NCBI RefSeq assembly: GCF_900890425.1
Contig: NZ_CAAHFG010000004.1
Location: 1,098,330-1,162,329, forward strand
Origin: Pontiella desulfatans
GTDB lineage: Bacteria > Verrucomicrobiota > Kiritimatiellia > Kiritimatiellales > Pontiellaceae
Direction: 5' to 3'
Length of the DNA stretch: 64,000 nt
The notes below the pieces were generated by a model. That model worked only from the letters and a program-made list of their open reading frames with translations. It searched no databases and was not told the origin of the DNA. Made by a program: the position numbers and the translations under genes. Shown here one piece after another: positions 50,945-63,474 of the stretch (position 1 is its first letter; each line of letters opens with the position of its first letter).

Positions 50945-51021
50945 CGGGGCGTGGCTCAGCCTGGTAGAGCGCTACGTTCGGGACGTAGAAGTCGCTGGTT
51001 CGAATCCAGTCGCCCCGACCA
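50945..51021 (+). tRNA. tRNA-Pro, anticodon CGG
   Basis: 77 bases including an encoded CCA. Acceptor arms CGGGGCG and CGCCCCG, D-arm with GGCTCAGCCTGGTAGAGC, anticodon stem CTACG/CGTAG with loop TTCGGGA (anticodon CGG), T-arm CTGGTTCGAATCCAG. All stems pair. A sigma-70-like promoter lies upstream and a terminator downstream. An integrase gene starts 158 bases further on, so the 3' part is the likely attachment site of the island. Confidence 0.97.
50997..51021 (+). other. probable attachment site (tRNA 3' end)
   Basis: Tyrosine integrases commonly recombine in the T-arm/acceptor part of a tRNA gene, restoring it. The adjacent integrase supports this. The second copy (attR) is not within the window, so the exact core is unknown. 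Confidence 0.4.
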
Positions 51022-51038
51022 TCTTAAACCTTTCAAAC

Positions 51039-51067
51039 ACAGCACTTAATGCAAGTGCTGTTTTTTT
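51039..51067 (+). terminator. intrinsic terminator after tRNA-Pro
   Basis: ACAGCACTT pairs with AAGTGCTGT around a 5-base loop, followed by a T-run. Confidence 0.85.
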
Positions 51068-51179
51068 GTTGTCTGCCTCCTGCGGCCCCGACTTCGGGGG
51101 ATACTTCGGGTTCGGGCCGTTTGATTCGTCCGCTTTGCATAGAAGCGGTGCAAATGGTCGCACATAACGGAGACAGGCA

Positions 51180-52490
51180 ATGGGATTGGAAATTGCAAGG
51201 AAGAAGGATGGTTCGCTGCGCTCGAAATGGTGGTATGGGCGCTTTACGGTCAATGGCAAGGATACAACCACCAACCTCGGGGTGGAGATCAAAGGCCGGG
51301 TTCCCGCGACGCTGCGACAAACCGGCGATGCGGCGTTCGAACATTCCCGTATTACGGCCCAGGTCAAACTGGACGGTTTGATTTTTGAGGCCCGCAGCAA
51401 AAAAAATGCGGAAAAACATCTGGAGGAGCTGTACGAGCTTAAGGCGGGCAGCGCCATCGAACAGGTTCCGCTGGCCGACATCGAGCAATGCTGGCAGAAT
51501 CTACCGAGCCGGAAACGTCGCACCGAGCTGTGGGAGAAAAACCAGTGCGCGACGCTCCGGAAGTTCCGCGAGTTTATAGAGGAACACCATTCGCACGTCT
51601 CCTATCTGGCCCAGGTCACGCCACGCATGGCGCAGGAGTGGTTGCGGCATCTCGATGAGCTGGGCTATGCGGCGGCAACCTACAACGACAAGCTGCATCT
51701 GCTGAAAAGTTTCTTTGATCGCATGGGTCACGATGCCGGGATTGTGCGCAATCCGTTTGCCGGGTGCCCCACCAAGGTCAAGACTACCGTGCATCACCAG
51801 CCCTTCACGCTCGACGAACTCAACCGCATCCTGCAGCACGCCGATGGTGTCATGCGCTCGATCTTTATAGTCGGCATGTGCACCGCCATGCGTCAGGGCG
51901 ACTGCTGCCAGCTCAAGTGGGAGGACGTCGATCTGCTTGGAGCCTTTATCACCGTCAAGACCTCCAAGACCGGCGAGACCGCCGAAATCCCGCTCTTCCC
52001 TGCGTTGCGCGATGAGATCGAGCGTCAGCCCCGAAACAGCAAATATGTATTTCCCGAGGCCGCCAAACTCTACCAAAACAAAAACTTCGGTATGTCATGG
52101 CGCGTCAAGCAGGTGCTTAAAGCCGCAAAGATCAAGACCGATCTCGAATGCGAAGACCGTATCCAAAACGCCACCGTCAAGGGATTCCATTCCCTACGCA
52201 CCACGTGGATTACCATGGCCCTCAGTGCCGGCGTTCCGATGGAGCTTGTCCGACGGGTCACCGGCCATTCCACGGTTGAAGTCGTGCTTAAGCACTATTT
52301 CCGGCCCGGCCGCGAAGCCTTCCGCAACGCCCTCGAAACCGCCATGCCCGCGCTGTTGACGCAGGGTAGCGCTCCGGTCACCGAAGGCCCCCTGCAGGAA
52401 CTTGCACGGCTGGCGCAGGAAGCCCCCGATATGAACAAGGCCGAACTGCTCAAACGCCTTCAGTCTCTCGTTGATCAAATCGCAGCCTAA
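51180..52490 (+). CDS. tyrosine recombinase/integrase
   Basis: 436 aa, ribosome binding site GGAGA. The N-terminal part has an arm-binding-type start (GSLRSKWWYGRFTVNGKDTT) and a SAM-like core-binding domain (TPRMAQEWLRHLDELGYAAA). The catalytic domain has the full set: R238 (AMRQGD), K263 (TSKTGET), H337 and R340 (GFHSLRTTW), H363 (TGHST) and Y373 (LKHYF). It cuts and rejoins DNA at the attachment site, here presumably the neighbouring tRNA-Pro. It appears intact, so the island could still be mobile, although the replication gene at the other side is damaged. Confidence 0.93.
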   Translation: MGLEIARKKDGSLRSKWWYGRFTVNGKDTTTNLGVEIKGRVPATLRQTGDAAFEHSRITAQVKLDGLIFEARSKKNAEKHLEELYELKAGSAIEQVPLADIEQCWQNLPSRKRRTELWEKNQCATLRKFREFIEEHHSHVSYLAQVTPRMAQEWLRHLDELGYAAATYNDKLHLLKSFFDRMGHDAGIVRNPFAGCPTKVKTTVHHQPFTLDELNRILQHADGVMRSIFIVGMCTAMRQGDCCQLKWEDVDLLGAFITVKTSKTGETAEIPLFPALRDEIERQPRNSKYVFPEAAKLYQNKNFGMSWRVKQVLKAAKIKTDLECEDRIQNATVKGFHSLRTTWITMALSAGVPMELVRRVTGHSTVEVVLKHYFRPGREAFRNALETAMPALLTQGSAPVTEGPLQELARLAQEAPDMNKAELLKRLQSLVDQIAA

Positions 52491-52553
52491 AGTCTCATCC
52501 TTGATCGCCTCCGATAAATAGTGGTACGATTCGCCCGTCTTTCGGGAATGATT

Positions 52554-53084
52554 ATGAAACTTAATGAGCTGGCGAAGAGGGTGGGGAAGAGCGTTCCATA
52601 TGTGATGACGCTCCAGAAAAAGTTTGGATTGCCGGTCTGCAAGGACTATCCCGTGGGTTATGCCGTGCTGGTTGAAAAGCTGATCTACCTGTCCATCTGC
52701 TCCGTGCCCGACAAAGAAATCAAGTCGCTGCTCTCCAAAGAAAAGAAACTGTTGGAACTGTTGAAGGTCGATTCCCTGCATGACGGTGGCCTCTGGTTTG
52801 AAAGCATGTGCGTTATGAAGTCCGGCCCGCAGCGGCTATTGCTCTCTGGCTATGACCTGGGCCATCCGGTCGACTGCCCAATCGTTCAGACTGGCCTCGA
52901 TTCCAGCGACCGCGAAAAAGAACTTTTCCAATCCTCGGAAATGGGCGCATCCGCATTGAAAGAGCTGCAGCGATATTCTGAAATATTCAATACCGTCAAA
53001 GTGCGAATTGAGCAGGAGCTGTCAACCGTTGATGATGCATTGAAGTGGAGCCTAAAGATCTGTAGCATGTCTCGCCATAGTTAA
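52554..53084 (+). CDS. small HTH-like protein, unknown function
   Basis: 176 aa from ATG 52554 (GGGA upstream; ATG 52548 is an alternative). The N-terminus LNELAKRVGKSVPYVMTLQK reads as a MerR/excisionase-like winged helix-turn-helix, followed by DKEIKSLLSKEKKLLELLKV. The C-terminal half (KELQRYSEIFNTVKVRIEQE) is helical. It lies between the integrase and the methyltransferase-HNH-S24 gene and ends 17 bases before it. It may regulate the island or assist excision; no family match is certain. Confidence 0.6.
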   Translation: MKLNELAKRVGKSVPYVMTLQKKFGLPVCKDYPVGYAVLVEKLIYLSICSVPDKEIKSLLSKEKKLLELLKVDSLHDGGLWFESMCVMKSGPQRLLLSGYDLGHPVDCPIVQTGLDSSDREKELFQSSEMGASALKELQRYSEIFNTVKVRIEQELSTVDDALKWSLKICSMSRHS

Positions 53085-53101
53085 TATCGGACAAAAGATT
53101 T

Positions 53102-55297
53102 GTGGATAACGTAACGATAAACACATATACGCAAAAGACTGCCGATTTTGTGATTCGGTATGATTCTGTTGTCGGTGGAATCAGTGATTATTTTCTCAAG
53201 GCATTTTCCGGTAATTCCAGAATATTGGACATTGGTTGTGGGTCGGGGCGCGACCTGCGTATTCTACATGAACTGGGCTATTCAGCCGACGGTATTGACC
53301 CTTGCCGGAAATTTGTTGAGCATGCTAAAGGTCGCATTTCGCAATATGGGGCAGAGGTGTCGGTCGACGCATTACCAAAGCTCTCAACTGTTAAGGATAA
53401 ATCCTACGATGCTGTCCTTTGCTCTGCGGTAATGATGCATGTACCGGAAGAGGAGCTTTTTGATGCGGCATATGCGATCCGGCGTGTCCTGTCGGAAAAG
53501 GGTAGCCTTTTGATATCCATCCCCTTGCGGGATAGCACGATTGATCCGGAAACCCAGCGCGATGCAGATGGACGGTTGTTCAATGGGACGTCTCCAGAAC
53601 AGCTTGAGCTGCTGTTTGAGCGAATCGGATTTCAAATGCTGAAGAGGTGGGACACCCCGGATGCGTTGCAACGCTCCCGCCGTCAATGGGCCACCATGCT
53701 CTTTCAGTTGGAGTCTTCGGCCGGCTCGAGACCCATAGACACTATTGAATCGGTTCTGAACAAGGACGCAAAAGTTGCCACCTACAAATTGGCGCTCTTT
53801 CGCTCGCTGGCTGAAATAGCCGTTACGAACTACAAGCTCGCCGGTTGGTTGGAAGATGGAAAGGTGAAGGTCCCATTGGCGGCCCTGGCTGAAAAGTGGA
53901 TCGAATACTATTGGCCAATTATCGAGGCAAAGGAATTTATTCCGCAAACCACGGGGCGGGCCATTGCTTTCAGAAAGCCGCTCGAAGACCTGGTTCTGTA
54001 TTACCGCAGTCGCGGGGGGCTCTCGGCGTTCTCTTTGGAATATCGCAATGCCGAGATGAGTGAAGAAGGTCATCAATTGTTGAACAAACTTTTCAGCAAA
54101 CTGAAGCAAACCATCTGGAGCCAGCCGGTTAAATATGCCGGAGGAGGCGAAGCCTTCTCCGTATTCCAGTATGATAAAACCGATAAAACGGTTCTGGTTG
54201 GCAGCGACATCTGGAAAGAGCTTTCTCTGATGGGAACCTGGATTCAGGATGCCACCATTCTCCGGTGGGCGGAGCTAACTGAAAGGATATCGGAGAAAAG
54301 GGAAACCCGAATCAAGGCCAGCACGGTAATTGATTGCCTACTTACGGTCCCAATCACGCAACGGGATGTCGGAGCAGCCAAGAAATTTTATGACACCCTT
54401 AAGGACAAACGGTGTGTCTGGTCGGATAACTCTATCACGGATAAATATGATCTGGACCATGCCATTCCTTTTTCGCTCTGGAAAAACAACGATCTGTGGA
54501 ACCTGCTACCCGCGAAATCCACGGTAAACAGCAATAAGAGCGATAAACTTCCGACACAGGCTCTCGTTCAGTCGCGCAAGGACTGCATTGTCGATTATTG
54601 GAACTGCATGAACGATGCCTATCCCGCCCGGTTCGAGTACGAGGCTGAAAAGTTTGTCGGCATAGGAGCGTTCGACTCTTCAAACTGGGAGAACAGGCTT
54701 TTCGCCACGTTCGCGGAAGCTGTCGAAATCACCGCCATCCAACGCGGAGTGGATCGTTGGAGTATTCCCGTAGCGGCCCGAAAGCCTGTCCGGGGGGAGC
54801 CGAAGTTAAGAATCGTTTACGAAGAACCCGATCCCTCCGCAATGTATGCACGCGTCGTGCCGTTGTATTCCCTGCAGGCCGCTGCCGGCGCATTCAGCGG
54901 GGTTCAGGAAGTCGAACCCGAAGGCTGGGTTGAGGTGGACACACGCCGTCGATTGAGGAAAGGAATGTTTGTTGCCCAGGTCGTCGGCCACTCCATGGAA
55001 CCCCGCATTCCGGATGGATCATATTGCCTATTTGATTCCCCCGTGGTTGGCTCTCGAAACGATCGCATCGTCTTGGTGCAACACCACTCAATCGAGGATC
55101 CCGACCATGGTGGGCGCTATACGGTCAAGCTGTACGAAAGCCGAAAACACGTCTACTCAGATGAAGCGCAGACAGCGTGGGTACACGACCAGATTTTACT
55201 GAAGCCGCTTAACCCGGAATACGAAAACATCACTATCGCGGCCGATCTGGAAGAGTTGAGTGTAGTCGCCGAATTCCTTGAAGTGCTGGATATCTGA
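53102..55297 (+). CDS. methyltransferase - HNH endonuclease - S24/LexA-like peptidase triple fusion
   Basis: 731 aa, GTG start with a weak ribosome binding site. Residues about 36-170 form a class I SAM-dependent methyltransferase (motif I ILDIGCGSGRDLRIL at 41-55, then YDAVLCSAVMMHVPEEELF). A helical region follows. At about 445-495 there is an HNH nuclease: YDLDHAIPFSLWKNNDLWNL (His453), then VNSNKSDKLP. The C-terminal 145 residues are an S24 domain: Ala595-Gly596 in SLQAAAGAF as possible self-cleavage site, Ser631 in VVGHSMEPRIPDG, and Lys676 in YTVKLYES. All three catalytic cores look intact. It probably acts on DNA with the helicase encoded downstream. Self-cleavage would separate methyltransferase-HNH from the S24 part. 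Confidence 0.82.
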   Translation: MDNVTINTYTQKTADFVIRYDSVVGGISDYFLKAFSGNSRILDIGCGSGRDLRILHELGYSADGIDPCRKFVEHAKGRISQYGAEVSVDALPKLSTVKDKSYDAVLCSAVMMHVPEEELFDAAYAIRRVLSEKGSLLISIPLRDSTIDPETQRDADGRLFNGTSPEQLELLFERIGFQMLKRWDTPDALQRSRRQWATMLFQLESSAGSRPIDTIESVLNKDAKVATYKLALFRSLAEIAVTNYKLAGWLEDGKVKVPLAALAEKWIEYYWPIIEAKEFIPQTTGRAIAFRKPLEDLVLYYRSRGGLSAFSLEYRNAEMSEEGHQLLNKLFSKLKQTIWSQPVKYAGGGEAFSVFQYDKTDKTVLVGSDIWKELSLMGTWIQDATILRWAELTERISEKRETRIKASTVIDCLLTVPITQRDVGAAKKFYDTLKDKRCVWSDNSITDKYDLDHAIPFSLWKNNDLWNLLPAKSTVNSNKSDKLPTQALVQSRKDCIVDYWNCMNDAYPARFEYEAEKFVGIGAFDSSNWENRLFATFAEAVEITAIQRGVDRWSIPVAARKPVRGEPKLRIVYEEPDPSAMYARVVPLYSLQAAAGAFSGVQEVEPEGWVEVDTRRRLRKGMFVAQVVGHSMEPRIPDGSYCLFDSPVVGSRNDRIVLVQHHSIEDPDHGGRYTVKLYESRKHVYSDEAQTAWVHDQILLKPLNPEYENITIAADLEELSVVAEFLEVLDI

Positions 55298-55339
55298 GGT
55301 GGGTACCTTGGTAATTCATAGATAGTGTTGCAGGGGAGT

Positions 55340-55355
55340 TAGTAAAAAATACTAG
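55340..55355. promoter_or_regulatory. palindrome TAGTAAAAAATACTAG
   Basis: It sits in the gap before the helicase gene. The same 16-mer occurs at 2517-2532 before the ABC ATPase gene. TAGTA/TACTA arms flank an A-run. A shared operator or an AT-rich coincidence. Confidence 0.3.
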
Positions 55356-55461
55356 CAAATACGGGTTGTTGATTAATATATTTACAAGAGTATCTCTTGC
55401 TGAATTCCCATATGGCTCGTATCGTCTCATATTGTGTAATGTTATTTCTTGGGGTTTAATC

Positions 55462-58400
55462 ATGATTGATATAGCGGTTGCGGGGAAGCTTTCAGCTCTG
55501 TTGCAGATGTCCAGTCGGCATCTGTGCGATTGGCTTTTTGATTCATTGCCCAAGCTGGATCAAGCCTGGTGGAGCGCCTTGGTGCTGCCCAATTTATCCT
55601 TCCAGCAACGCCAGCGGGTGGAGCAAAACGGTATTACTTCTTTATCGCAATTTGACCTCGCGGCATTGTTGCGCATTCTGGATCGTAATTGGTACGAAAT
55701 TTCATCCCGCTTCAATCTCACGAATCAGGATCGAAATTTCGTTAAGGAGATGCAAACTGTACGCAATCGTTGGGCACACATGGATGCCCACGGCGTGGAT
55801 GCGGACGATGTTTACCGCGATGTTGATACATTGCAGCGTTTTTTAAAGGCAATTAATGCGCCGAGCGGGACTGTTGATGCTGTAAAGCAGGTAAAAGAAC
55901 AGATTCGCAATGCCGCAGCGCCGGAGCCGGAAGTTGTCAAAGAGCCGGAGCTGGAGCCGGCAGTAGAACCCGTTGTCCCGGAGGAACCCGCAGTAGAATC
56001 CCCACCTTCCAACGGCATTGGTATCGGCAGTTTGGTCGCTCTTGTCAGCAATCCAGAAAAAACCGGGGCGGTAATGAGTATTGATGGATCTGATGAGACC
56101 GCCCGGTACACGGTCTTCCTGGATGGCCGGCCTCAACCATTCTATGCCCCACAACTTCAACTCGCTGAGCAGGTATCCGATAAAAATCTGGTTAAGTTAA
56201 GTGAGTTGCACAGCCTGTTGACTGGATTGCAAATTCGCCATCCATCGCTTTCAACCCTCTATTCACTCAACGCGGCTCGTATTGACTTCGTTCCGTATCA
56301 GTTCCGCCCGGCCCTCAAAATTATACAGTCCGACCAGCCACGCCTTTTAATTGCCGACAGTGTCGGGGTGGGCAAAACCATTGAGGCTGGTCTTATTCTT
56401 CGCGAACTCCAGGCCAGAAGCAATGTAGAGTCCGTACTCATCATTTGTCCAAAACCACTTGTAGCTGAGCGTAAGTGGGAACTTGAGATGAAGCGCTTTG
56501 ATGAACGTTTTGTCCCTCTCGACGGCAAAGCTCTTCAACACTGTATTCATGAAACCGAGCTGGATGGTGAATGGCCTGACTCGCATGGGAAGGCTATCCT
56601 CCCATACTCATTGCTGCAGGATGAAGGCCTGCTCCATGGGAAAACCAATGGGAGGAAAAAGCAAATCGGTTTGCTCGATCTCGATCCTCCTCCCAAGTTT
56701 GATTTGGTCATCGTAGACGAAGCCCACCACGTCAGGAATTCCAACACCTTTGCCCATCAGGCCGTCAGCTATTTCTGTGAACATGCCGAGGCCGTCGTTT
56801 TCCTCACAGCAACACCGGTACAGATGGGAAATAACGATTTGTACACGCTTTTGAATCTGCTCCGGCCGGATTTGGTAATCGATCCCGAAACCTTTGAGCA
56901 CATGGCCGAACCGAATCCCCACATTAACAATGCGGTTAATCTGGCACGTGCGGGAGGCGAAAATTGGCAGGAAAACACTGTAGAGGCTTTGCAACGCGCG
57001 GCGGACACCGCATGGGGCAAATCAATCCTACGCAATAACCCAGGCTATCAGGCCTTGATTGAAGAATTAGGAAAGGTCCCGTTGTCTCGGGCTGACCGTG
57101 TGGCTCTCGTTCGCCAAATGGAAGGCTTCCATAGTTTTTCACGGTTGATTAATAGAACACGCCGCCGGGACATAGGCGCATTTTGTACCCGCAAGCCGGA
57201 GACCGTGGCCGTTGAATTCACGGTAGCGCAAAAGAAATTGCACGACGACTTGTTGGAATTTCAGGCCAAGGCGCTGACACTGATGCATGGTGCGCAAAAT
57301 ATTCAGTTCATGATGAGTACCATCCGCCGTCAGGCTGCAAGCTGCATTTTTGGCCTAGCCCCATTCATCACTGATATTCTGCAACGTCGACTCTCAGAAC
57401 TGGAATGGCTGGAATCTTCTGATGACTCAGGCGATCTTCCCGAGTTTGTAAAAGCGTTAGAAAATGAAGCGTTGGATATCGTCGGAAGTGTCAAAGCACT
57501 TTCTCCAGAAGATCCTAAATTTGACGCGCTTTTACGGATTGTCACAGAGAAAATAAAAATGCCGAACAACAAGCTGATGGTGTTCAGTACGTTCCGTCAT
57601 ACCTTGGCTTATCTGGAGAGAAAACTCCGGCAGGGTGGCATTCGCGTGGGAATGGTGCATGGCAACGTCAAAGATGAGGATCGGTTGGTTCTACGAAACA
57701 GATTTGAGATGCACAAGGAAGATTCCGATACCTTGGATGTGCTCCTCTTTTCCGAGGTTGGCTGCGAAGGTCTCGATTACCAGTTCTGCGATATGATGGT
57801 GAATTATGATTTGCCGTGGAATCCTATGCGTATTGAGCAGCGCATAGGGCGTATCGACCGGCGAGGGCAGAAAAGCGAGGCGGTGGCCATCTATAATATG
57901 ATTACGCCCGGTACGGTTGACGCGGACATCTATAACCGTTGTTTGTCGCGCATTGGCATTTTTGAGGACAGCATTGGGGAGTGCGAAGAAATTCTGGGGG
58001 CTATCACCCGTGAAATCCGGAATATTGCGGACAACCTGGAACTTTCAGAAGAGGAGCGGCAGTCCAGGCTGGAGCAGTTGGCCGATAACGAGGTGAGAAA
58101 TATTCAGGAGCAGCAGAAGCTGGAAGAGCGGGAGCACGAACTCTTTGGGCTCAGACTGCCGAACAATGCCCCCGATGCGGAACTACAGGCTTCGGAAAGC
58201 TACTGGCTGTCAATGGCATCTCTCCAGCGGTTTGTACATCAATATTTGAATCAGCGCCTGGGGAAAGCGGACTATATTCTGGGCGATAAACCGTTGAAAA
58301 CGGTGCGTTTGTCGCAGGAGGCGCGAAGCAAGTTGCTGGAAGACTACCGCAAGCTCCCCGGCTCAAAAACACCCATGTTCCGGGATTGGGAAAAATGGTT

Positions 58401-59049
58401 AAAGGGAGCAGAACCCCATGCGGTCATAACGTTCGACTCCTCCTGCGCGGCGGATCATCGCGAAGCACTGTTCGTTATGCCCTTGCATCCCTTGGTTAAG
58501 CAGGCGGCTCGCTATCTCGATGTTGCAGAACCCGTCCATACGGCCCTACGTGTGCAGGATGCCGACCTTGCTTCGGGCAGTTATCCTTTTGCCATCTATG
58601 CTTGGGAGATCAAAGGGCTGCGCCCGGAACTCCGCCTCGTTCCGGTTTGCAACAGCGATGAAATACGACAGGGCTTCTTCGATTGTCTTGAATCCGGCGC
58701 CTCGATTGATCCTTCCACGCATTTGGTACCCGATGAAGAAATCGATTCAATAGACAAAGTGCATCACCGCCTCTGGGAGCAGGAGAAAGCTGAGCATCAG
58801 GCTAAAACTGCTGAGATGGTTCGCTTCAGGCAGGAAAGTCTCGAGACCAGTCATCGTGGCCGGATCAATGTCATCGAAAAGCAGATTGACAATGCCACCA
58901 ACGCCAAGATCCGCAAAATGAAAGAGGCGCAGCTAAACAACGTGCAGGCCGATTATGAACGCAAGCGCGCAGAACTCCAATCTGCGGAATCTGCTGCGGA
59001 TATTCATGCCCGCCCAGTCGTCTTCGGTACGTTGGTGGTGGAGGCATAG
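55462..59049 (+). CDS. SNF2-family helicase with N-terminal Swt1-like HEPN domain
   Basis: 1195 aa from ATG 55462; the frame extends back to 55366 but those residues look untranslated. The HEPN domain (about 1-130) has LLRILDRNWYEISSRFNL and the RNase-type motif R101-N-R-W-A-H106. A Pro/Glu-rich linker and a small beta domain (IGSLVALVSNPEKTGAVM) follow. The SNF2/RapA-like motor has DSVGVGKTIEAGL (K305), VIVDEAHHVRN, FLTATPVQMGN, VFSTFRHTLAYLERKL, LLFSEVGCEGLDYQFCD and the arginine finger QRIGRIDRRGQ. The C-terminus has coiled coils. The architecture resembles DISARM DrmD-type helicases. It would translocate on duplex DNA and may deliver the nuclease fusion or the HEPN toxin. Confidence 0.82.
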   Translation: MIDIAVAGKLSALLQMSSRHLCDWLFDSLPKLDQAWWSALVLPNLSFQQRQRVEQNGITSLSQFDLAALLRILDRNWYEISSRFNLTNQDRNFVKEMQTVRNRWAHMDAHGVDADDVYRDVDTLQRFLKAINAPSGTVDAVKQVKEQIRNAAAPEPEVVKEPELEPAVEPVVPEEPAVESPPSNGIGIGSLVALVSNPEKTGAVMSIDGSDETARYTVFLDGRPQPFYAPQLQLAEQVSDKNLVKLSELHSLLTGLQIRHPSLSTLYSLNAARIDFVPYQFRPALKIIQSDQPRLLIADSVGVGKTIEAGLILRELQARSNVESVLIICPKPLVAERKWELEMKRFDERFVPLDGKALQHCIHETELDGEWPDSHGKAILPYSLLQDEGLLHGKTNGRKKQIGLLDLDPPPKFDLVIVDEAHHVRNSNTFAHQAVSYFCEHAEAVVFLTATPVQMGNNDLYTLLNLLRPDLVIDPETFEHMAEPNPHINNAVNLARAGGENWQENTVEALQRAADTAWGKSILRNNPGYQALIEELGKVPLSRADRVALVRQMEGFHSFSRLINRTRRRDIGAFCTRKPETVAVEFTVAQKKLHDDLLEFQAKALTLMHGAQNIQFMMSTIRRQAASCIFGLAPFITDILQRRLSELEWLESSDDSGDLPEFVKALENEALDIVGSVKALSPEDPKFDALLRIVTEKIKMPNNKLMVFSTFRHTLAYLERKLRQGGIRVGMVHGNVKDEDRLVLRNRFEMHKEDSDTLDVLLFSEVGCEGLDYQFCDMMVNYDLPWNPMRIEQRIGRIDRRGQKSEAVAIYNMITPGTVDADIYNRCLSRIGIFEDSIGECEEILGAITREIRNIADNLELSEEERQSRLEQLADNEVRNIQEQQKLEEREHELFGLRLPNNAPDAELQASESYWLSMASLQRFVHQYLNQRLGKADYILGDKPLKTVRLSQEARSKLLEDYRKLPGSKTPMFRDWEKWLKGAEPHAVITFDSSCAADHREALFVMPLHPLVKQAARYLDVAEPVHTALRVQDADLASGSYPFAIYAWEIKGLRPELRLVPVCNSDEIRQGFFDCLESGASIDPSTHLVPDEEIDSIDKVHHRLWEQEKAEHQAKTAEMVRFRQESLETSHRGRINVIEKQIDNATNAKIRKMKEAQLNNVQADYERKRAELQSAESAADIHARPVVFGTLVVEA

Positions 59050-59051
59050 TC

Positions 59052-61736
59052 GTGCAAAAATTTATTGAGGAATTATTTAAAAAGCGAAGTCAATGGGTTG
59101 ATGCCAACCGGGCGAATGGCTTTGATGAAGGTATAGCTACTCTACTCAAGGAATTATATCCCGATAACGCGCACTTTCTCTATGAATTGCTTCAAAATGC
59201 CGAAGATGCCGAGGCTTCAGAAGTGACCTTTAAACTTTCAGCAGAAAACCTCTGCTTCATCCATAACGGCCGCGATTTTGAAAAGGAAGACATAGATGGC
59301 ATCACGGGTATTGGAAACACCAAGAAGAAGGACGATCTAAATAGCATTGGAAAGTTTGGCGTAGGTTTTAAGGCCGTCTTCAGCTACACGAATTCGCCCT
59401 ACGTTCATTGCGATTCAGCTAGCTTCGGTATAACAGACATGGTTTGTCCGATAAACGATAGTCGGCCAAAAGGACTTGCTGCAGGCTACACCCAGTTTGA
59501 TTTCCCTTTTGATAACCCCAAGAAACCGAAAAAGGACGCGTTCACGGAAATTCAGGAGGGGTTGAACGGATTTTCATCGGCCACGCTGTTATTTCTTCAT
59601 AACATCCAAACCATTCGGTGGGAAATCGCCGGAGAACCCTTGCATTATCTTAGGCGCAAGGAGGATCGGAACGGGTTCGATGCATTGCCGGTGTTCAATA
59701 TTGAGTCGGACTCTTTAGAGGAATCGATTTATTGGCTCCGTTTAAGTGCTGCGTGCAAGGAAGAACCAGCACACCCCGTCTCCATTGCACTGCAACTGGC
59801 TTCAAAGAAAGTAAAAAAAGGCGCATTTCCTTTCTCGGTAGTGCCGACGGAAGAAGGGCGGCTTTGTATATTTTTCCCGGCGGATAAGGAGCAGACAGAT
59901 TTAAAATTCCATATTCATGCGCCGTTCGTTTCCACGGTGGATAGGGCCAGCATTCCTTATAAAAACAGGGATAACATTTCACTCCGAGATCAATTGGCCC
60001 AGTTGTTGGCATCCTCTTTGCCGATGCTTCGTGATGCCGGGTTGCTGACCTCCAAGTTTCTTGAGATTCTACCCAATAGTACGGATGACCTGGGCGAATT
60101 CTATGAACCCTTTATCTCATCCGTCGTGGCCGAAATGCGGGAAAATGCTTTGGTGCCGACAGCATCCGGTGATTATGCTTTAGCCGAGGAGCTTGCCAGA
60201 GGACCTAAACGGATCCGCGATTTTATAACGAGTGAGGATCTCCAGTTTCTTTCCGAGGATGAGTATCAGCAATGGGCTGTGGGAACATTTAATCCAAGAT
60301 CGGAACTGTTTCTAAAGGAGTTGGGTATACCAGAATGGTCCAGTGCAGAGTTGGTTGATGTTATTACCACCAAATGGGGTGGATATTACGAAGACGATGA
60401 CTCGGAGTGGTTAGACCAAAAAGATACTCCGTGGCTTCGCAGCTTATACCTTTGTGTTTCGGATGAAGATATTTCGTATGGGCTAAAACGGTGCGCAATC
60501 GTTCTGGCGTCTGATAAATCCTTCAAAAAACCCGATGATATTGTGTTCAAGCCAACGGGCAACAACCTTTCATCGGTAGCCGGAATATCCTTCGTTCACT
60601 CCGGCATCCTAAGGGGTGATAAGAACGAAGTACAAAAGATCAGGACTTTTCTAGAGTCCCTCGGAGTGAAGGATCTCGATGAAAAGCATTTCATAAAAAG
60701 TTTGTTAAATAAGCACTACAAGGCGGATGATGAGCCTCCTCCCGCGTTTGAGGAACACATAGAACACGTCAAACGTTTTATGAAGTATTGGAAGCAAACG
60801 GATGACAAGGATGTTTTTAGAGGCTTTGTCGTATTATTTTCAGATGAAGATGATGGTTCATTTTGCTCCGTAAGCGATGGCTATCTGGACGAACCCCTTT
60901 ATCCGACAGGCTTAAGGCACGTGCTTTCAGATTCAAAATATTTGGTTTCAGAACAATATGCCGTACTTGGGGAAACATTCATTGCTTTCGCTAAAGCGCT
61001 GGGCGTTCAATGTGGATTAGCCCCTCAACGATGTATGGCGTGGTACAATAAACTGATTCAAGTGCCTGCCGGGTCGCGAGAAACGGTTACGTCGATTAAC
61101 GAGGATTATGCATTACCCAAGTGTTTAGACCGGCCGCAGTATACTTTTAATATATCTCTGCTTGTGTGGAAAATGATGGTTTCAGCTTTGCCAAGGCAGC
61201 TCCAGGCGAGATATCGACCAAACCAGGCGCATGGAACCCAATGTAAACAATCACAATTGGTGCAGGATCTTGCTGTGAAGGAATGGGTACCTGACAAAGA
61301 GGGTAATTTTCATAAACCGGCTGAAATGATCCGAGAAGACCTTGCGGTCGAATTTGTATATGACGATAACAATGGATGGCTCACCGCAATAGGTTTTGGC
61401 GCTCAGATTGAAGCTGAAAAATTTGAACAGGAAAAAACAACGCAGATACTGCGTAATGAAGGCATCGACCTGTCTTTAGAGGATCTAAAGGTCTTAAGTG
61501 AAATCCCCACAGAAGATCTTCATGCGTTGATGGATGAATACCGCTCGCGCAAGGCCGCAGAAATACATCTGCCGCACGTCGTCCGGTGGTGCTCGTCTTT
61601 TGTGGAAGCTGGCGGAGCCGTTTCCATTGCACCGGAACGATCTTACCGCAAAGCTCATGCGGCATATCAAAAAGAAACTCAAGCTATCCAAGCTGCTCGT
61701 CGGTCTGGATACGGAGGCCTTCGAAGATCCGTGTAA
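59052..61736 (+). CDS. sacsin-like GHKL ATPase, 3' end apparently replaced
   Basis: 894 aa, GTG start 2 bases after the helicase stop, so translationally linked to it. The first about 250 residues are a Bergerat-fold ATPase: FLYELLQNAEDAEASEV (N-box), CFIHNGRDFEKEDIDGIT (G1) and SIGKFGVGFKAVFSYT (G2), as in sacsin N-terminal/Hsp90-like proteins linked to nucleases and defence genes. The family normally continues into a further C-terminal domain. Here the typical sequence stops near EYRSRKAAE (about 61560). The last about 60 codons look like another frame of the primase gene. So the gene is probably 3'-truncated by recombination, though the ATPase is intact. Confidence 0.72.
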   Translation: MQKFIEELFKKRSQWVDANRANGFDEGIATLLKELYPDNAHFLYELLQNAEDAEASEVTFKLSAENLCFIHNGRDFEKEDIDGITGIGNTKKKDDLNSIGKFGVGFKAVFSYTNSPYVHCDSASFGITDMVCPINDSRPKGLAAGYTQFDFPFDNPKKPKKDAFTEIQEGLNGFSSATLLFLHNIQTIRWEIAGEPLHYLRRKEDRNGFDALPVFNIESDSLEESIYWLRLSAACKEEPAHPVSIALQLASKKVKKGAFPFSVVPTEEGRLCIFFPADKEQTDLKFHIHAPFVSTVDRASIPYKNRDNISLRDQLAQLLASSLPMLRDAGLLTSKFLEILPNSTDDLGEFYEPFISSVVAEMRENALVPTASGDYALAEELARGPKRIRDFITSEDLQFLSEDEYQQWAVGTFNPRSELFLKELGIPEWSSAELVDVITTKWGGYYEDDDSEWLDQKDTPWLRSLYLCVSDEDISYGLKRCAIVLASDKSFKKPDDIVFKPTGNNLSSVAGISFVHSGILRGDKNEVQKIRTFLESLGVKDLDEKHFIKSLLNKHYKADDEPPPAFEEHIEHVKRFMKYWKQTDDKDVFRGFVVLFSDEDDGSFCSVSDGYLDEPLYPTGLRHVLSDSKYLVSEQYAVLGETFIAFAKALGVQCGLAPQRCMAWYNKLIQVPAGSRETVTSINEDYALPKCLDRPQYTFNISLLVWKMMVSALPRQLQARYRPNQAHGTQCKQSQLVQDLAVKEWVPDKEGNFHKPAEMIREDLAVEFVYDDNNGWLTAIGFGAQIEAEKFEQEKTTQILRNEGIDLSLEDLKVLSEIPTEDLHALMDEYRSRKAAEIHLPHVVRWCSSFVEAGGAVSIAPERSYRKAHAAYQKETQAIQAARRSGYGGLRRSV

Positions 61737-63474
61737 ATATTACGAGGCCGGTACTGGTTGGAAGGCGTTATCCTGCGATGAAATATCGCCATCCTTCATG
61801 ATGCAGTGGGCGATTGATTCCACGCATAACTATGCCTGGGCCAAGCTCGGTACGGTTATTCCGATGGCCGTCGTTTCCGCAGAAGTGGAACGCCAGTTCC
61901 CTGGACGGTGGCACGGCGATTTCTACATCGGAGCCCGTGGCATCCGTTTCTGGGATGCCGAATCCGACAACCAGACTGCCGCAGTTGTACGGGAAACCGG
62001 GATGCAATGTTTTACCGGTGGTACCGCCTTCGTTCCATGGTCAGTGATTTTAGGTCGCCAGTTCGTCAGTCAGTTTGAGGCGGATCGGATTGGCGGCAGT
62101 GTTACCGATGTCTATTTCGATGGGCGCGACTACTGGCGCCAGCGCAGCAGCGGCGAATGGAGATCCTACAGCAAAGCCGACATCGCGCTCTATCTGAAAG
62201 TAGATCGCGGTCTCCGTCCCCAGGTTTCACGCGGTGAAACATTCAGCGAAGTCGATCAGGCCATTCTCCGTATCCAGGATCATCAGGACATTCATTGCGC
62301 CGCTCCGTTGGTGCATCGTCCAAAAGGCATCGTGCTCATCGACGGCCACCGCGTACTAAACACATCCACCGTCACCGTCCTCCAACCCGCCACCGATGAA
62401 GAATACTATCAGGCCGTGTGTTTAGCTGGAGGGGCATCGGCCTCGATGACCGATCCGTCCGCTCAGTCTAACAACCACCAACCATCAACCAACAACTGCC
62501 CTTATCCCTGGTTGTACGATTACTTCAACGGCTATTTTGATCCGCCCGAGCAACTCGACTATTTCTATGCCTGGTTGCAACGCTGGTACCAGTCCGCTCT
62601 CGAAGGACGGATGCGGCCCGGGCAGGCTTCCTTCTTTGCCGGAGTTCCAAACACTGGAAAAACCCTGTTATCCAACGTCATTCTATCCCGTATCTTCGGT
62701 GGCCATATCGACGCCAGTTCGTTTCTTTCCGGTGAGGATGGTTTCAACAGCCATCTCTTTACCAGTGCCGTCTGGGCGGTGGATGATGTTGTGCCGCTTA
62801 CGGATAACAAGTCCCATCTGAAGTTCTCTGCCCTCATCAAGAAGATGGCCGCCAATCGTACCTTCTCCGTGCGCGAGAAGTACCGCGTCGACAAGTTGAT
62901 CGAGTGGAACGGCAGGGTGGTGGTGACATGCAACACCGACCCGGAGTCGATTCGTATTCTTCCAGATGTCGATTTGTCCAACCGGGATAAAATCAACCTC
63001 TTCCGGATTGCGGAACGAGATACCTTTACCTTCCCGCGCGATGTCGAATCCATCATTGCCGCAGAGTTGCCGTTCTTTCTACGTTGGCTGCTCGACTGGC
63101 AACCACCGGACGAAGTCATCGGCGACACGCGGTATGGAGTGCGGACATACTGCGAGGATTCCCTGTTCGAGGCGGCACGTCATTCATCCAGCGCCTATTC
63201 TTTCCTCGAAGTCCTGCTCAAGTTTTTCGAGGGGCAGGTGGAAGACACCTGGGAAGGATCTTCCACAGAATTACTTTCAGCCATGCTAAACGATCAGGAT
63301 GGTCTGGCCGGCATCGCCGCCAAATATACGCCCGCCAAAGTCGGTCGTGAGCTCTCCAAGCTCGCCTCTCAAGGCTATGCCGTGGAGCAAGGCCGTCGGC
63401 ACGCCACCCGAGTTTGGATCATCAACATAGCACAACTTTCCGGGAGGGATTTGGATGAAAAAACACCCTTCTAA
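61534..63474 (+). pseudogene. primase-helicase (SF3/DUF5906-type) missing its 5' part
   Basis: 646 codons from the first ATG in frame (61534). Primase-type sequence becomes recognisable at about 61558 (KYICRTSSGGARLLWKLAEP). This corresponds to the end of an archaeo-eukaryotic-type primase domain, so the upstream catalytic Asp region is missing. The helicase is complete: Walker A FAGVPNTGKTLLSN, WAVDDVVPLTDNKSHLKFS and the SF3 VVVTCNTDPESIRI. It replicates mobile elements or satellites. The first about 200 bases overlap the ATPase gene in another frame. The helicase part may still be expressed from an internal start, for example ATG 61660. Confidence 0.7.

Follow-up and report, generated by a model that had tools for sequence, protein, structure and literature searches.

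Proteins of the LexA, UmuD and lambda CI family cleave themselves at an Ala-Gly or Cys-Gly pair by means of a Ser-Lys dyad, with the distance from the cleavage site to the serine being 35 residues in LexA, 36 in UmuD and 38 in CI. In this family the S24 domain has a helix-turn-helix partner. Stimulation of the cleavage by RecA is the rule among LexA-like proteins; a documented exception is IrvR, whose constitutive cleavage does not depend on RecA and uncovers a degradation tag at the C-terminus (PMC7101444). In both LexA and IrvR, cleavage exposes a ClpX tag at the new C-terminus (PMC10584840, PMC7101444).

How a cell spares its chromosome from its own restriction nucleases during DNA damage is a long-standing question, which has been answered mainly for EcoKI, where ClpXP destroys the HsdR subunit and thereby alleviates restriction. 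Proteolytic shut-off of restriction linked to DNA damage is an established theme (PMC11109961, PMC12707154). Proteolysis can also act in the opposite direction, as in the nuclease-protease pairs of Hachiman and AVAST, where a separate trypsin-like protease activates a gated nuclease (PMC12799240). Among restriction enzymes that will recur below, SauUSI is a type IV enzyme of the order PLD-helicase-DUF3427 (PMC3874153).

The window analysed here, a stretch of 64,000 nucleotides from Pontiella desulfatans, encodes at 53102-55297 on the forward strand a protein of 731 amino acids that combines elements of these systems. The reading frame is intact, with no internal stops; its GTG start agrees with homologues that begin with MD, and the gene is present in a single copy in the host genome. 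Pfam places three domains on it, all above the curated cut-offs: Methyltransf_23/25/11 at residues 31-180 (E 1e-14), HNH_4 at residues 445-484 (E 1e-7) and Peptidase_S24 at residues 587-723 (E 5e-9). An earlier note, made from the sequence alone, had read the gene as a single protein carrying a methyltransferase, an HNH nuclease and an S24 peptidase, and this is borne out, as are the catalytic residues that it named (GCGSGRD, His453, Ser631 and Lys676), which are right by residue number and alignment. Structure prediction of the whole protein, proposed there as a check, gave an AlphaFold2 model, built on 43 homologues, with a mean pLDDT of 87 and a pTM of 0.73. The model has no usable interface between head and tail, and inhibition of the head by the tail therefore stays conceivable. 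Searched against PADLOC (2023), the protein gave partial mad2 and Cas9 HNH matches only, and no known anti-phage system extended over its whole length.

The class I SAM methyltransferase domain (residues 1-203; 53102-53710) carries its motif I, LDIGCGSGRD, at residues 42-51 (GCGSGRD at 45-51), and this motif is kept in 43 homologues. Its fold neighbours, by predicted structure, are small-molecule and tRNA methyltransferases, and no [DSN]PP[YFW] motif of N6/N4 DNA methylases was seen in the domain. It belongs to the class I small-molecule/RNA type, lacking the motifs of a nuclease-matched DNA methyltransferase, and a role in protective DNA modification should thus not be ascribed to it. A helical middle region, conserved in the alignments (residues 205-425; 53714-54376), follows; it always adjoins the HNH domain, and in the Bacteroidota pair described below it shares a separate gene with the HNH. 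The HNH domain itself (residues 434-553; 54401-54760) is Cas9-like, as judged from HNH_4 and from Cas9 HNH matches in PADLOC and the PDB, and its residues D452, H453, N476 and K479 are invariant in 43 aligned homologues. A linker (residues 556-581; 54767-54844), modelled with low confidence at 559-568, leads to the tail, and it is where this linker begins that tail-less homologues stop.

The tail (residues 582-729; 54845-55288), delimited by Pfam and by a separate model, is of the LexA/UmuD/CI-like S24 type. Its predicted self-cleavage site is Ala595-Gly596, between SLQAAA and GAFS (54884-54889), its predicted nucleophile Ser631 (54992-54994) and its predicted general base Lys676 (55127-55129). 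The Ala-Gly pair lies just before the S24 core, as the earlier note had placed it, and 36 residues before the serine. When 57 tails (56 complete and one fragment) from about ten head families and three phyla were compared, the lysine was present in all 57 and the serine in all 56 complete tails, and an Ala-Gly or Cys-Gly pair stood 35-48 residues before the serine in 55 of the 56. Homologues that lack the Ser/Lys pair, which according to the earlier note would speak against a self-cleavage switch, did not appear, since no complete tail among those compared has lost either residue. The tail of L031 is irregular, having A-S at the best-aligned position and Ala-Gly a few residues further on. The sole complete tail without an [A/C]-G site belongs to a Schlafen-type helicase (L190, 177-2495), in which the serine and lysine are kept and an insertion removes the glycine from an A-A site; to judge from its sequence, this may be a natural candidate for an uncleavable form.

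Modelled alone, the tail reached a pTM of 0.82. Its best matches among solved structures are a cleavable-form LexA mutant, LexA on RecA filaments (8gms, 8trg, 8s7g) and a hyper-cleavable lambda CI fragment, with the top Foldseek matches to LexA and CI at E 1e-5 and a TM of about 0.5-0.7. Compared with the PDB as a sequence profile, the tail matched LexA, UmuD and CI and nothing else, in a weak but specific manner. The residues, the site, the predicted fold and the conservation across 57 tails support the S24 part as a cleavage-competent domain of LexA/CI type, and a built-in self-cleavage switch, the first half of what the earlier note proposed, is the best reading of it. What sets it apart from LexA, UmuD and CI is its place at the C-terminus of nucleases and restriction enzymes; no helix-turn-helix of a LexA-type repressor was found in the protein, whose N-terminal part is the methyltransferase-HNH head. 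About ten unrelated heads keep the dyad and the site in their tails, which would be hard to explain if self-cleavage were not under selection, and it is from this conservation that we infer cleavage.

Two further readings of the tail can be weighed against the same residues. The best viral family of the tail is the phage transcriptional repressor phrog_4 (E 1e-11), as would be expected of a captured fragment of a phage repressor that persists as an evolutionary leftover without a current role. However, active and cleavage sites kept in 55-57 of the 57 tails, on about ten heads, in three phyla and after repeated gain, render such a leftover extremely improbable, and a degenerate repressor remnant is ruled out by the conservation of these residues. 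Alternatively, the tail may mainly bring the enzyme to RecA-coated DNA, or sense such DNA, with cleavage serving as a reset; LexA, UmuD and CI bind RecA filaments through this S24 fold, and solved complexes of this kind are among the best structural matches of the tail. Near-perfect conservation of the serine, the lysine and the A/C-G pair would nevertheless be needless for docking alone, and we judge this reading improbable.

The host genome encodes RecA and has only two S24 proteins, a LexA and the methyltransferase-HNH-S24 protein. Near the gene, no match above chance was found to a LexA operator, the query being a guessed operator, TGTACGATCGTTCA, taken from upstream of lexA; control, if any, is therefore likely to lie on the protein itself. 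Such control need not involve RecA, and one may speculate that constitutive self-processing sets the level of a dangerous nuclease, with IrvR as the precedent for cleavage without RecA (PMC7101444). IrvR is, however, an exception among characterised LexA-like proteins, and the host does encode RecA, which makes constitutive processing rather improbable.

To place the head, 84,980 species genomes were scanned, yielding 189 confirmed relatives, the best 80 of which were taken further. Among these best 80 of 189, proteins with the methyltransferase, middle and HNH regions occur in Pseudomonadota, Spirochaetota, Acidobacteriota, Planctomycetota, Bacillota, Bdellovibrionota and archaea. The methyltransferase-HNH proteins are thus widespread, and they usually end near residue 555 (in the numbering of the window protein), without a tail. 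Tailed forms were confined, in the best 80 of 189, to the Verrucomicrobiota/Kiritimatiellota/Lentisphaerota group and one Delongbacteria contig, all others being tail-less. The order of three domains, which the earlier note had suggested searching for, was met again in some 20 independent genomes, with few exceptions from the Verrucomicrobiota group. That the fusion arose by chance or by an assembly error is ruled out, as it recurs in many genomes without stops. The natural end of the head near residue 555 in many tail-less relatives indicates that the head is autonomous and that the S24 tail is an addition, and the abundance of homologues that lack the whole tail indicates that the tail is optional.

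The HNH protein of Bacteroidota is not fused to a methyltransferase, which is often encoded by a gene of its own just after it; at L118, L122, L123 and other Bacteroidota loci an HNH gene of about 370 amino acids precedes the methyltransferase gene, which in the one case tested carries a fused HIT nucleotide-hydrolase domain. The methyltransferase and HNH halves are separate also on one Nitrospirota contig. No partner gene common to most methyltransferase-HNH loci was found. Schlafen-type or PLD-DUF3427 helicases, accompanied by NUDIX or MazG genes, recur as neighbours of these proteins. At L034, L042, L207, L214 and L073, genes for small nucleotide hydrolases (MazG-like or NUDIX) adjoin tailed or tail-less nuclease-helicases, so that enzymes of nucleotide clean-up are paired with these systems repeatedly. 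Phage and plasmid records gave no match to the whole fusion, yielding head matches and one tail match only; two scans of viral contigs did not find the whole protein, and a scan of viral contigs with the tail returned distant S24 relatives only.

The tail is not limited to this head. Already the first homology search matched the S24 part inside unrelated long frames. A profile search with 16 tails of the type found in the window (type 1) as the query detected this tail in 21 of 388 genomes of the host phylum, in 4 of 299 Pseudomonadota genomes and in 8 of 198 Bacteroidota genomes, and in none of the 199 Bacillota genomes searched. Every match in Pseudomonadota and Bacteroidota lies within a long frame, of 724-1160 amino acids. 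In a control, the S24 domains detected by Pfam in 59 genomes of the phylum were, with three exceptions, in frames of at most 387 residues, a length typical of ordinary repressors; among the three exceptions, which are long, are the window protein and a fusion of Schlafen type. Long fusions are therefore exceptional for the S24 family at large.

The heads of the tail bearers were identified with Pfam and PADLOC. They comprise an AlwI-type restriction enzyme (L047), a type I/IIB specificity subunit (L046), type III restriction (Res) subunits (L187, L188, L189), SauUSI-like type IV enzymes with the PLD-helicase-DUF3427 order (L212, L214) and a Druantia DruE (L185), and also Schlafen-group-3 helicases with a nuclease-like N-terminus (L034, L042, L045, L195, L196, L190) or with GIY-YIG (L207, L210, L197, L198), a PLD helicase (L038), an HNH_2 protein (L186) and a helicase with an HNH-associated repeat (L041). 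SauUSI (type IV), AlwI (type IIS), type III Res and DruE, whose characterised members are, to our knowledge, without an S24 tail, here form the heads as complete enzymes: the PADLOC profiles match along the full head and give out shortly ahead of the tail (AlwI-type enzyme, 2-564 of 570; type III Res, 3-972 of 973; SauUSI-like type IV enzyme, 1-952 of 953). Next to the specificity-subunit gene lies an N6 DNA methylase gene and next to that of the AlwI-type enzyme a D12 methylase gene, while the tailed type III genes have N6/N4 methylases as neighbours, two of which have type III signatures. The type II, type III and specificity-subunit loci are ordinary restriction-modification loci with an extra tail.

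The tail module is thus borne by type II, III and IV restriction enzymes, by DruE, by Schlafen-type nuclease-helicases and by methyltransferase-HNH proteins. We consider it fairly probable that this portable LexA-type tail serves bacterial DNA defence generally as a control module, cleaving itself in response to RecA filaments. The protein in the window is one case of it, and the scope is wider than that of the earlier note, which dealt with this protein. In being recruited repeatedly by unrelated immune systems and in controlling a nuclease, the module would resemble the proteases of Hachiman and AVAST; unlike these, it would be a self-cleaving S24 domain acting in cis. Our literature search brought up no account of restriction or defence enzymes with S24 tails, which is weak evidence as most subscription journals lay outside the search.

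What would such cleavage do to the enzyme? Our preferred explanation, which we hold tentatively and with slightly less than even confidence, is that the window protein is a methyltransferase-HNH defence enzyme with an added self-cleaving S24 switch that turns restriction off under DNA damage. According to this model, an S24 domain of the phage-repressor/LexA type was added to a DNA-targeting defence enzyme, and RecA filaments would trigger self-cleavage of the tail. The cut would separate the nuclease head from the tail and leave the head with the end -AAA, which may serve as a LexA-like ClpXP tag and so lead to removal of the nuclease. The outcome would be a post-translational fuse, shutting restriction down when the cell's own DNA is at risk (restriction alleviation), and it is to this end that restriction and defence enzymes unrelated to one another would have acquired the tail time and again.

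The new end of the head bears on this model. After the predicted cut, -AA would remain on the head in 44 of 56 tails, versus 10 of 29 for ordinary S24 regulators from this phylum (p about 1e-4 by Fisher's test, without correction for kinship). In seven tails the cut would leave -AC and in three -TA, and these are probably weaker ClpX tags. The excess of -AA may, however, reflect a sequence preference of cleavage rather than a degradation signal. The parallel with EcoKI is partial. Both involve a post-translational loss of the nuclease, here a proposed one, when the cell's own DNA is at risk. In EcoKI, however, ClpXP acts alone and alleviation works in a lexA1 strain, whereas here the switch would be carried on the enzyme itself; that EcoKI alleviation needs no LexA cleavage counts against the model.

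The earlier note had suggested the opposite outcome, that the cut detaches an active effector. In that reading the head is gated by its tail until phage replication or DNA damage leads, by way of RecA, to self-cleavage and so to the release of an active nuclease. Hachiman and AVAST offer a known proteolytic activation of a gated nuclease (PMC12799240), RecA filaments can arise from phage infection, and the apparent competence for self-cleavage conserved across the tails would fit this as well. However, the head is autonomous in tail-less relatives, which end near residue 555 and need no release; the tail is found on restriction subunits with partner methylases, where activation by damage would be self-destructive through cutting of the host, and on a specificity subunit, which is needed for methylation too; and the predicted cut usually leaves a LexA-like -AA, in the window protein -AAA. 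We therefore regard activation as unlikely overall, and as possible, by analogy, above all for the methyltransferase-HNH and Schlafen heads. For these same reasons, and because cells are known to need a proteolytic shut-off of restriction once DNA is damaged, we favour the off-switch, and the direction of the switch is probably the reverse of that first proposed.

If this is true, a common self-cleaving tail would form a direct physical link between the SOS signal, that is RecA filaments, and immunity, and restriction would have a built-in DNA-damage switch. The LexA family would then extend from repressors and a polymerase subunit to nucleases, and the tail could serve as a sequence marker for finding damage-gated defence enzymes.

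Three types of tail were seen on the tailed methyltransferase-HNH proteins: type 1, that of the window, with YxLxAAAGxF; type 2, with LPLVGxLAAGxxFHG; and type 3, with xACGxF. In the head tree the window protein (type 1) is sister to L031 (type 2) with support of 97/89, with type 3 close by, and L092 (type 2) is sister to the tail-less L035 (100/99), apart from the main tailed clade. Well-supported branches of this tree force at least three changes for the type 2 tail. The presence of different tail types on closest relatives indicates that a single head family has repeatedly gained tails or exchanged them. In the tail tree, SauUSI-like tails group with those of GIY-YIG Schlafen helicases (100/100), the AlwI tail with that of the specificity subunit (99/90), and the type 3 methyltransferase-HNH tail with that of the PLD helicase (100/100), all tails being far from the host LexA. 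In the complete genome of Kiritimatiellota bacterium B12222, a type 2 methyltransferase-HNH gene (L071) lies within 4 kb of a type 1 Schlafen-type helicase (L034), so that one locus has two different tails.

In the window, the gene is part of an integrative island at tRNA-Pro (50945-63474), a mobile and defence-like neighbourhood with a GC content of 0.51 versus 0.58 upstream. A second island end at a tRNA repeat was not found within the contig. The tRNA-Pro (50945-51021) is followed by a tyrosine integrase (51180-52490), a gene for 187 amino acids of no known family (52521-53084) and the gene described here. Downstream lie a HEPN_Swt1-SNF2 helicase (55366-59049), a sacsin-like ATPase (59052-61736) and a P4-like primase (DUF5906, phrog_1156; 61534-63474). 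The helicase, which likely starts at the ATG at 55463, is a Swt1-like HEPN domain fused to an SNF2 helicase related to DrmD, RapA and DpdE; it scores below the curated DrmD cut-off and is thus a divergent relative. The ATPase begins 2 bases after it and is related to the PADLOC TmtA of Tiamat, and the two may constitute a defence pair not described so far. A perfect inverted repeat with 9-base arms, ACAGCACTTAATGCAAGTGCTGT, lies at 51039-51061, between tRNA-Pro and the integrase, and may be an attachment-site element or a terminator.
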